64,000 bases of DNA from Prochlorococcus sp. AG-355-N16 (GTDB taxonomy: Bacteria > Cyanobacteriota > Cyanobacteriia > PCC-6307 > Cyanobiaceae), in assembly GCA_003278545.1 (NCBI GenBank), contig QCEF01000001.1:248001-312000 (forward strand), in the 5' to 3' direction. Positions 52,400 to 56,283 of the stretch are shown piece after piece; positions within the stretch are counted from its first letter, which is position 1, and each line of letters starts with the position of its first letter. Position numbers and translations under genes: made by a program. The notes under the pieces are model-generated. The model worked only from the letters and a program-made list of their open reading frames with translations, was not told the origin of the DNA and made no database searches.

Positions 52400-52471
52400 T
52401 CCTCGGTAGCTCAGCGGTAGAGCGATCGACTGTTAATCGATTGGTCGCAGGTTCGAATCCCGCCCGGGGAG
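52400..52471 (+). tRNA. tRNA-Asn (anticodon GUU)
   Basis: A 72-nt cloverleaf ending in the discriminator G, with no encoded CCA. The acceptor stem TCCTCGG pairs with CCGGGGA (one G-U). The D-loop region is TAGCTCAGCGGTAGAGC, and the anticodon loop CTGTTAATCG holds GTT. The T-arm loop is TTCGAAT. Its 3' end serves as the attachment site of the cassettes that follow, and copies of that end recur at 53764 and 56221. A strong terminator lies 19 bp downstream. Confidence 0.97.
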
Positions 52472-52502
52472 TTCATTTACGGGTTCTTCAGACTTCAAGT
52501 TA
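52461..52502 (+). repeat. Attachment sequence at the tRNA-Asn 3' end (first copy)
   Basis: The 42 bases from CGCCCGGGGAGTTCA through the left arm of the terminator are repeated at 53764-53805 with only 3 mismatches. This is the usual sign of site-specific insertion into a tRNA gene, where the element brings a copy of the 3' end. The functional tRNA is the left-most copy. Confidence 0.85.
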
Positions 52503-52523
52503 TGTAACTTGGGGTCTTTTTTT
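52490..52523 (+). terminator. Rho-independent terminator after tRNA-Asn
   Basis: Stem AGACTTCAAGTTA (52490-52502) and TAACTTGGGGTCT (52505-52517) around a two-base gap, with two G-U pairs, followed by a run of seven T. A diverged copy of the same hairpin stands after the second att copy. Confidence 0.85.
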
Positions 52524-52530
52524 GGCATCC

Positions 52531-52561
52531 ATATTGGGAATATGTTGGGAATATGTTGGGA
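52531..52561. repeat. Left-end tandem repeats of cassette 1 (11-bp unit ATATGTTGGGA)
   Basis: ATATTGGGA at 52531-52539, then two exact copies of ATATGTTGGGA at 52540-52550 and 52551-52561. The same unit in the same orientation recurs at 53672-53691, right at the alpA start, at the other end of the cassette. Tandem direct repeats near both ends of tRNA-integrated elements are typical of arm-type binding sites for a tyrosine recombinase or its excisionase. Confidence 0.75.
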
Positions 52562-52580
52562 AAAAAATGGAATAATAAGG

Positions 52581-53456
52581 TTAATCTTCAACTAGGTCAA
52601 ATTTAATTTTATATTTTTTGAACTGGATTATGTCTGAATTAAAAGTTAATGCTCTCCTTAAACCGAGATCATCATTTAAACCAATAATTAATCCCTTTAC
52701 TTTTTGATCAGAGGTTGCTATTTCGTCTTGTATATAACCCATATATCTTTGAATTTGACCAACAACCTTATCGCTTGCTCTCCCCTTTTTAAGTTCGATC
52801 ACTAAATAAGTTTTTTTGTCTTTACTAATAGCAAAAATATCAATTTCGCCAGTATCTGTTCTGAATTTTTTTCTTTTCCCATCAATAGTCTCTTCACAAA
52901 TATCGTATTCTCTCCCGAGATCTAATGAATCCCAATTACCAATTATGAATTCCTCTAAATGTTTTTCCATAACAAAACTATTATCTGAATCCAATTTATT
53001 CTTATCAGTAGATAGTATTTGATCCGAGTCATCAACACTCAAGGTTATTTCAATACTAGTAGTAGGTTCTCCCTTATTATTGGTAGTAGGTTGCTTATCC
53101 TTGAAGGAAAAGTTTTTCCCAACTCCTAAATATAAAAAGTATTTATTTTTTTTATCCCATCTTGCAAAAAAGTGAGAAGTAAACTCATAATTTAAAATTT
53201 TTTTAAAAGTAGGTTGTTCCGAATGACTTTCTGTATCGCCGTACCAGATTATTTTTTTTTCTTCTGGATCATACTTATTAGGGTAGTTATGTCCTGTTTT
53301 GCCAGGGACATCAATATTCATGAAAATTATAAGATCATTAGTCCCTTTTGGATTTACAAATCCACTTGTCCAACGACCGCCAGGAGGATAAGGACACCCA
53401 AAATACAAGTTATGAATATCATGTCTTGAGTATTCTGACCCTTTTTTAAAATCCAT
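52581..53456 (-). CDS. Predicted two-domain endonuclease: DUF3427/SRA-like N-terminus plus DUF91/NucS-type nuclease
   Basis: A 291-aa cargo gene of cassette 1. The C-terminal half has PD-(D/E)xK nuclease motifs of the NucS/DUF91 kind: helix with Glu167-Glu169, Asp206 in TGEIDIF, Glu221 and Lys223 in VIELKKG, and Gln234/Gln236 in GQIQRYMGY. The N-terminal half (GSEYSRHDIHNLYFG at 6-20, then FFARWDKKNKYFLYLG at 96-111) looks like the DUF3427 or SRA/PUA-type domains found beside nucleases and helicases. This pairing suggests a modification-dependent restriction or other defence nuclease. It lies 22 bp downstream of alpA on the same strand. The nuclease call is firm and the N-terminal call is by eye. 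Confidence 0.8.
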   Translation of the reverse strand: MDFKKGSEYSRHDIHNLYFGCPYPPGGRWTSGFVNPKGTNDLIIFMNIDVPGKTGHNYPNKYDPEEKKIIWYGDTESHSEQPTFKKILNYEFTSHFFARWDKKNKYFLYLGVGKNFSFKDKQPTTNNKGEPTTSIEITLSVDDSDQILSTDKNKLDSDNSFVMEKHLEEFIIGNWDSLDLGREYDICEETIDGKRKKFRTDTGEIDIFAISKDKKTYLVIELKKGRASDKVVGQIQRYMGYIQDEIATSDQKVKGLIIGLNDDLGLRRALTFNSDIIQFKKYKIKFDLVED

Positions 53457-53478
53457 GATATTAATTAATTAATCAATT

Positions 53479-55934: not shown

Positions 55935-55939
55935 TCTCT

Positions 55940-56131
55940 TTATTCAGATTTTTTACTTTCTATCCACTCATCAATTTCATATTTCATAAAAACTTTTCTG
56001 CCTGGTGATAATTTTATTTTGGGAGGAAAGACTCCTTTTTTGATTAATCGATTAATAGTAGAGATTGAAATTCCAAGTAAATTTGAAACTTTTTTATAGT
56101 TAGAAAGGGACTATTTTCTGAATTAGTAATG
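55940..56131 (-). pseudogene. Frameshifted AlpA-like gene (cassette 2)
   Basis: Read on the minus strand, this matches the intact AlpA protein at 53479-53673 along its length. One base is missing near 56090-56096 (the run that should read Lys-Glu-Val-Ser). After the shift the frame gives VSNLLGISISTINRLIKKG, then KIKLSPGRKVFMKYEIDEWI and a stop at 55940-55942. The position of the start codon reads ACC instead of ATG, so initiation is lost too. The DNA differs from the intact copy at many sites, so this is an older or separate lineage, not a fresh duplicate. Confidence 0.8.
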
Positions 56132-56149
56132 GTCGTGAAATGGCCGTGA
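56128..56149. repeat. Tandem 11-bp repeats at the cassette-2 right end
   Basis: ATGGTCGTGAA (56128-56138) and ATGGCCGTGAA (56139-56149), followed by ATATATC exactly as in cassette 1. The sequence differs from the cassette-1 unit, but the 11-bp period, the place just before the alpA reading frame and the distance to the att core (71 against 72 bp, counted from ATATATC) are the same. Confidence 0.75.
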
Positions 56150-56197
56150 AATATATCTTTTTCTTCGATTTCTTATATTAGGTTCTTTCAGGGATTC

Positions 56198-56235
56198 TCA
56201 GGAAAGGCCTCCCTGACTTTCGCTCGGGGAGTTTA
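56198..56235 (+). repeat. Third att copy: cassette-2 right end
   Basis: The 38 bases here align without gaps to 53741-53778: both begin TCAGGAAAGG and end in GACTTTCGC followed by CCGGGGAGTT or TCGGGGAGTT. Downstream of the core the likeness to the tRNA copy is lost; a different terminator follows. It marks the right boundary of an older insertion at the same tRNA. Confidence 0.8.
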
Positions 56236-56255
56236 TAAATTCCTAAAAGTTATCC

Positions 56256-56283
56256 AAAGTCACCCTAAAAAGGTGACTTTTTT
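56256..56283 (+). terminator. Rho-independent terminator after the third att copy
   Basis: Perfect stem AAAGTCACC (56256-56264) and GGTGACTTT (56272-56280), loop CTAAAAA, then a T run. It sits where the tRNA terminator copy sits in the other two att sites, but its sequence is unrelated. Confidence 0.85.

Follow-up and report, generated by a model that had tools for sequence, protein, structure and literature searches.

How could two cassettes that encode no recombinase have come to stand in tandem behind a single tRNA gene? The question arises from a 64,000-nucleotide (nt) stretch of the Prochlorococcus sp. AG-355-N16 genome (1.65 Mb, completeness 95.5%), hereafter the window, in which two cassettes are inserted site-specifically and end to end (52474-53776 and 53777-56233) behind the gene for tRNA-Asn. 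Coordinates are those of the window, and features lie on the plus strand unless noted. With a probability of roughly 0.6, we read the locus as a tandem pair of small integrative satellites of the tRNA-Asn elements found in Prochlorococcus; they would keep an excisionase and addressed ends and borrow the integrase of a helper.

Two cassettes inserted at tRNA-Asn

The integration target is the tRNA-Asn(GTT) gene (52399-52472, identified using ARAGORN), whose last 12 bases plus one form the att core CGCCCGGGGAGTT (52461-52473). Based on sequence and repeat searches, this core recurs at the junction of the two cassettes (53764-53776) and, judged by sequence and with one substitution, at the end of the array (56221-56233). 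The original prediction, made from the letters alone, had pointed to a 42-nt repeat of the tRNA 3' end and to a gap-free likeness between the right ends of the cassettes. Both hold over longer distances: 62 nt from 52461 occur again at 53764 (87% identity, with three mismatches in the first 42 nt by eye), and the right ends align without gaps over 148 nt (53629-53776 and 56086-56233, 70% identity). The alpA stretch 53486-53638 also aligns to 55944-56096 at 78%. As had been proposed, no recombinase was found between the core copies: a profile search gave no integrase of the family searched, and no listed open reading frame suggested another recombinase.

Each core copy has its own terminator-like hairpin on its 3' side. 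The hairpin of cassette 1 today stands behind the tRNA gene (52490-52517) and another marks the left end of cassette 2 (53792-53821; both from a hairpin scan), while the native tRNA-Asn terminator (56236-56283, hairpin at 56256-56280), located by joined-flank alignment and hairpin scan, was displaced by the insertions and runs into the conserved flank up to rpaB (57321). The region holds five terminator-like hairpins compared to a mean of 2.1 (s.d. 1.6) in shuffled sequence; a promoter scan of the same region was uninformative (15 promoter-like sites, shuffled mean 18.8).

Occupied and empty sites across Prochlorococcus

We compared the tRNA-Asn regions of 60 genomes, picked on the quality of their assemblies and the length of their contigs, plus 60 further regions; 110 loci, window included, hold the tRNA. 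Among the added regions, 20 (15 with the tRNA) and some others were chosen for AlpA hits, which inflates AlpA and occupancy fractions over all 110 loci. A locus was called closed when the tRNA and the downstream DUF7326 gene lay on one stretch, and empty when that gene began no more than 430 bp from the tRNA start. Using these definitions, 18 of the 54 quality-chosen closed loci were empty and 36 were occupied; an inner core was recognised in 27 of the 36, and 9 had two or more, three being the maximum. Over all 96 closed loci, 30 were empty and 66 occupied, with no recognisable core in 16 of the 66.

A script-made junction of the window's tRNA with its outer flank aligned to 25 of the 109 other loci, from its first base across the joint, at 78-90% identity. 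These loci show the empty site, and with it that the cassettes were inserted. Of the 30 empty sites, 18 had the native terminator immediately after the tRNA. None of the 50 occupied sites whose core was recognised showed it there, and in 19 of them it followed the last core. It was not visible at the similarity used in the other 12 distance-empty sites, some of which may be scars or diverged. We cut out 77 core-delimited cassettes (median 1351 bp, longest 10,263 bp, 17 under 300 bp); without AlpA-based selection there were 38 in the 54 closed loci, of which two (at loci L009 and L054) had an intact integrase.

The tandem arrangement goes beyond chance: it recurs at the tRNA-Asn of many other genomes, and empty sites exist. 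The original prediction had proposed looking for empty sites, for other cargo between the same ends and for full-length relatives with an integrase, and all three were found, the last as the complete element G035 described below. Its refuting outcome, an interval fixed everywhere whose ends have no relatives, did not occur, and fixation of the interval is rejected by the empty sites.

Matched iterons and phased steps at the cassette ends

The right end of cassette 1 carries two copies of ATGTTGGGAAT (53672-53693) and its left end three copies of ATRTTGGGA at 11-bp spacing (52531-52561), both found using repeat and iteron searches. Iteron searches placed the right-end iterons of cassette 2, ATGGTCGTGAA / ATGGCCGTGAA, at 56129-56150, and a left-right iteron search found no matching copies at its left end. 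The tandem 11-bp repeats predicted at the start of each alpA gene are thus present in both cassettes, but the three left-end copies in cassette 1 had been missed.

To place these repeats in the wider family, we used a G/C-weighted search for units at 10-13 bp spacing. Of cassettes of at least 500 bp, 45 of 60 had a clear right-end pair, 10-13 bp apart, which ended 69-74 bp before the core in 42 of the 45. An earlier simple spacing test found 11 bp to be best in only 21 of 42 ends, probably due to A/T runs masking the signal. The iteron sequence varies widely between cassettes (TTGGGA, GGTGGGG, GTTCGGG, TTCGCTA, TATTCGTC and TGTGGCATT among others), and 33 of the 45 cassettes repeat their right-end unit within the leftmost 260 bp, mostly in three copies (17/33) or four (11/33) and at spacings of 11-12 and 20-23 bp. 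The left-right match score was reached by 10% of mispaired ends and 4 of 45 shuffled left ends, and the observed match sum by 0 of 10,000 re-pairings. In arrays, a cassette's own left-right pair beat that of its neighbour in 15 of 16 comparisons, with the window's cassette 2 giving the one tie. Matched left and right iterons behave as would be expected of integrase arm sites. Iterons were intact at both ends in 8 of 13 tRNA-side, 5 of 15 outer and 20 of 32 single cassettes, a stacking polarity too weak to claim.

Between the repeats and the core lie TCA steps common to many iteron types. Counted back from the core, they occur at -43, -33, -23 and -13 in 40, 55, 32 and 17 of 77 ends (mean elsewhere 1.39) and in 19, 22, 13 and 9 of 39 non-redundant ends (mean elsewhere 0.65), compared to a maximum at any position of 8 over 500 shuffles of either set. 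Position -37 is another real one (14/77 and 8/39). In the window, the sequence of cassette 1 has three such candidate excisionase sites (53721, 53731 and 53741, at -43, -33 and -23; 53721-53743) and that of cassette 2 has two (56188 and 56198; 56188-56200). These 10-bp-phased steps are probable AlpA sites.

Several variants of this anatomy were seen. Gene-free mini-cassettes of ~170-260 bp (L012, L041, L046, L061 and others) consist of a terminator, one merged iteron set, phased sites and the core, and look like left-right iteron deletions, comparable to solo long terminal repeats. By eye, several AGTTAGTGT cassettes (L096, L113 and L117 among them) have ~80 bp between alpA and the iterons and a further iteron-like unit beside the start codon, which would fit replacement of the end. 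Also by eye, two ends upstream of an integrase (L141, L142) lack the tRNA-Asn core, yet show tandem 12-bp and then phased short repeats; the end layout may therefore be general to the integrase family.

Rare integrase-bearing elements with the same iterons

A full tyrosine integrase was identified by profile search in 3 of 110 tRNA-Asn loci (L009, L054 and L138) and in 3 of 77 cassettes; the profile was built from seeds and applied to open frames of at least 40 amino acids (aa), so that very divergent integrases could escape. Using one helper integrase as query, 24 of 266 genus genomes matched, fragments included. Counts based on PF00589 are no census, since that profile misses divergent integrases. 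Six integrase-bearing elements have a tRNA-Asn core (G035, G111, G184, G021, G050 and G082). G035 is a complete 14.6-kb element with a tRNA-Asn core at 31676 of its contig, the next core at 46313 and the integrase inside. Its ends carry ATGTTGGGA three times on the left and twice on the right, and nowhere else on the stretches read; both the unit and the 3+2 layout are those of the window's cassette 1. The right end of G111 carries the same two ATGTTGGGA units. Over 106-108 bp, from the alpA start through the core, the right end of cassette 1 is 89-90% identical to those of G035 and G111, which are closer to it than any other locus listed.

Exact matches extend beyond this case, with three of four helper iteron units recurring in integrase-less cassettes: ATGTTGGGA in the window and L036, ATGGTGGGG of helper G021 in L011, L012 and L015, and ATGGTCGGG of helper G050 (also G184) in L008 and L157. 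With matching iterons in helper and satellite, it may be possible to read from sequence which helper moves which cassette. Nine aligned members of the helper integrase family have five invariant columns (R, K, H, R and Y in 9/9), which we take to be catalytic, and all nine match PHROG integrase families. Combined into a profile, the nine match 3jtz, a solved structure of an integrase arm-binding domain, at E = 0.003, and Pfam Arm-DNA-bind_3 matches one of the nine (2.7e-13) and not the G035 integrase alone.

A separate AlpA lineage and shared cassettes

Cassette 1 has an intact 64-aa AlpA-type gene on the minus strand (53479-53673; Pfam Phage_AlpA 1.5e-10 and PHROG excisionase families). Its start codon, 90 bp from the core, overlaps the outer iteron, and by its helix-turn-helix family and position beside the att site the product is classed as a putative AlpA-type excisionase. 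Comparison of sequence and open reading frames revealed that the counterpart in cassette 2 (55943-56130, minus strand) is broken, with no ATG in the usual place and a frameshift in the first third. A left-facing AlpA-type gene had been predicted for each cassette, which is borne out in intact form for the first but not the second.

The AlpA of small cassettes (sAlpA) and the AlpA of five tRNA-Asn helpers were separated with 100/100 support, and 20 intact sAlpA genes had a median pairwise ratio of nonsynonymous to synonymous substitution rates (dN/dS) of 0.30 (quartiles 0.24-0.39, 190 pairs). Judged by tree and substitution pattern, sAlpA is a separate lineage under purifying selection. Of 60 cassettes measuring 450 bp or more, 15 have an intact sAlpA gene (7 of 28 without AlpA-based selection), which in 14 of the 15 starts 83-104 bp from the core. 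Helpers and satellites have iterons in common while their AlpAs are of different lineages, so that the iterons go with the integrase and not with AlpA. A search with the AlpA alignment against one-genome-per-species assemblies returned 30 loci, 29 from Prochlorococcus and the remaining one a 34% match. One contig (L128, G034:C14) has two near-identical sAlpA genes with the same iterons (synonymous divergence 0.13), a possible recent double insertion.

Comparison between genomes revealed 17 pairs of cassettes from different genomes that share most of their length, of which 15 are more alike than their hosts' rpaB genes (98.1% versus 89.8% for the best pair) and six occupy different array positions. 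These pairs are not independent, as 15 of the 17 come from one ~1-kb cassette type in six genomes. They support movement in trans. The ~1-kb type (L003, L023, L034, L170, L175 and L180) has TATTCGTC iterons at 12-bp spacing (the pair was not picked up in L034); neither integrase nor AlpA was found in it, and L003 has two small open reading frames. Because this recurrent type was found without either gene, a cassette may need only its ends.

Proposed mechanism and alternative explanations

On our reading, a complete cassette would begin with the regenerated tRNA 3' end and its own terminator, followed by three (sometimes four) arm-type iterons and the cargo. On its right side would come an inward-facing AlpA-type excisionase gene with two arm-type iterons over the gene start, then a ~60-bp segment in which as many as four excisionase sites follow one another at a spacing of one helical turn, and finally the tRNA-end core. 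Such a cassette would encode no integrase; a rare helper targeting the same tRNA would supply a tyrosine integrase, whose N-terminal arm-binding domain would read the iterons while its catalytic domain exchanged strands in the core. The iteron sequence would then serve as an address that sets which helper moves which cassette, the cassette's own AlpA would tip the direction toward excision, and newcomers inserting at a core would build arrays. The family is in line with the original prediction, which had spoken of small satellites or decayed relatives and, if they moved at all, of mobilisation in trans; we infer the assignment of proteins to repeats, the direction of stacking and movement in trans.

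Several results weigh against the satellite reading. The best-evidenced recent spread is that of the ~1-kb type, with neither integrase nor AlpA, so AlpA in cis is not always needed, and the case for movement in trans is one of genome comparison. In L005 an integrase remnant lies next to a broken sAlpA-type gene, a sign that one or more sAlpA elements probably carried an integrase in the past. Matched left iterons are missing in 12 of 45 testable cassettes, cassette 2 included, and no integrase-less cassette has the exact iteron unit of G082. The window's own genome (95.5% complete) had no match to the helper integrase at 1e-5, in a search that very divergent integrases could escape, and because of this the window's array may at present be stuck. 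Scans of IMG/VR, one of them a single-protein scan that reaches only close relatives, returned one match for AlpA (33%) and none for the integrase, and so no convincing relative that would speak for packaging by a helper phage.

Some of these points would suit an origin by decay, in which the cassettes are immobile CIME-like leftovers that lost their integrases separately, with AlpA surviving in a regulatory role. Arrays of this sort are known to arise through CIME accretion (PMC5704250), and cassette 2 with its broken alpA and absent left iterons, the L005 remnant and the 17 of 77 cassettes below 300 bp all fit decay. The position of sAlpA on its own side of a 100/100 branch, with 20 intact copies at a median dN/dS of 0.30, argues against decay, as do the fixed distance to the core in 14 of 15 intact genes and the near-identical integrase-less cassettes in distant hosts, and we consider it unlikely. 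A different doubt concerns the 11-bp iterons, which could be AlpA operators or excisionase sites and not integrase arm sites. The start codon touches or overlaps the outer right iteron in many sAlpA cassettes, but iterons are present at the left end as well, and tRNA-Asn helpers keep the distance from iteron to core though their alpA begins ~200 bp further in and belongs to the other lineage. Helpers and satellites with different AlpA also have iteron units in common, the same presumed recognition helix (cassette 1 and L015) stands beside different iterons, and the shared phased TCA array would be the better AlpA site. We judge this assignment distinctly unlikely; as AlpA operators alone, the iterons are rejected by the left-end copies and the helper ends.

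If cells exchanged this DNA through homologous recombination alone, with the tRNA and rpaB flanks or the shared ends as substrate and no site-specific enzyme, the process would draw on flanks that are conserved and cassette ends similar enough to recombine, and the mini-cassettes do resemble left-right iteron deletions. This route is nonetheless very unlikely given that insertions end at the tRNA-end core, that 6 of the 17 shared pairs sit at different array positions and that rpaB is less alike than the cassettes in 15 of 17 pairs (15 of the pairs being of one type). The host might instead supply the enzyme in an integron-like manner through a 389-aa tyrosine recombinase encoded beside a cobO-like gene (G000:C4:128261-128689; locus L063, 835-2004). 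This is the window genome's only PF00589 match, and among the matches listed, proteins of ~389 aa occur in many of 151 genus genomes (any PF00589 match in 138/151). One conserved enzyme would leave the many iteron types at a fixed position and the exact iteron match between helper and satellite unexplained, which makes this the least credible of the alternatives and, to us, highly improbable.

Cargo of the two cassettes

Cassette 1 (1.3 kb) looks complete. Its cargo, on the minus strand (52581-53456), encodes a 291-aa protein with a PD-(D/E)XK-type nuclease domain (Pfam NucS_C 1.3e-6) that matches the PADLOC candidate defence family PDC-S02 (4.1e-58), making it a candidate anti-phage gene. Cassette 2 (2.5 kb) is partly decayed, with its alpA broken and its left repeats missing. 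It carries a gene with a GTG start for a 689-aa SBBP beta-propeller repeat protein (53865-55934; Pfam SBBP 1.9e-16), in which 127-bp units at 54751-54877 and 54919-55045 are 87% identical, a sign of internal repeat gain. The G035 integrase element is directly followed by a cassette (46313-51165) whose last 993 bp are 93% identical to cassette 2; by this alignment, G035 and the window have the same outer neighbour behind a different inner element.

Relation to known systems and significance

Tycheposons are reportedly insertions in Prochlorococcus tRNA genes that carry cargo and a tyrosine recombinase. They are mentioned second-hand in PMC10872708, PMC11389934 and PMC10803314. The window cassettes resemble them in host, in insertion at a tRNA 3' end (with the tRNA-Asn end as core, and empty sites) and in carrying cargo, but no recombinase was found in these cassettes of 1.3 and 2.5 kb. 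The six integrase-bearing elements probably belong to them. CIMEs, as described in PMC5704250, have lost their integration and transfer genes, are flanked by att sites and are stacked in tandem at one gene end. On that description, the cassettes are likewise integrase-less, att-ended and stacked at one gene end, but many retain a gene of excisionase type whose lineage is separate, and their ends have element-specific iterons. A decay origin of this kind has the separate AlpA lineage against it, and the L005 remnant and the decayed cassette 2 for it. We describe the array as excisionase-only satellites related to, rather than placed within, tycheposons and CIMEs.

PICMI, PICI and P4 satellites are small and site-specific, have an AlpA-type excision factor and can carry anti-phage genes, according to PMC10803314. 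The window cassettes match that outline in size, site specificity, AlpA-type gene and candidate anti-phage cargo; in neither was a gene for an integrase, a primase or packaging seen, AlpA and cargo being all that was found. The attP of ICEMlSymR7A, recombined by IntS with RdfS, has five arm sites (TGKTGGTATC), all of them required, and its excisionase binds at about one molecule per 10 bp over 40 bp, as stated in PMC11963761. The 3+2 iterons and the four phased steps described here agree with these numbers; the source concerns a 502-kb conjugative element with its own integrase, and the likeness is one of numbers. In the titles and abstracts covered, a scope outside which most subscription papers fall, we recognised no description of integrase-less AlpA cassettes at the Prochlorococcus tRNA-Asn.

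Integrons collect small gene cassettes at one platform using a recombinase encoded elsewhere, and their attC sites form hairpins. At somewhat less than even odds, tRNA-Asn in Prochlorococcus may host a comparable cassette economy, in which a standing population of integrase-free addressed cassettes, many with their own excisionase, would be gathered, stacked and passed on by rare mobile helpers of one address each. It would differ from integrons in that the platform is a tRNA gene, the att ends are lambda-like (core, phased sites and iterons) and the helper can itself move. Dispensing with the integrase while retaining the excisionase would be an unusual division of labour for satellites, and, if true, iteron sequence alone would predict the helper-satellite network from genomes. 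In a streamlined and globally abundant ocean bacterium, such an arrangement would explain how cargo, a candidate anti-phage gene included, is exchanged at one tRNA despite the few genomes that carry an integrase of this kind (24/266 with any match, fragments included).

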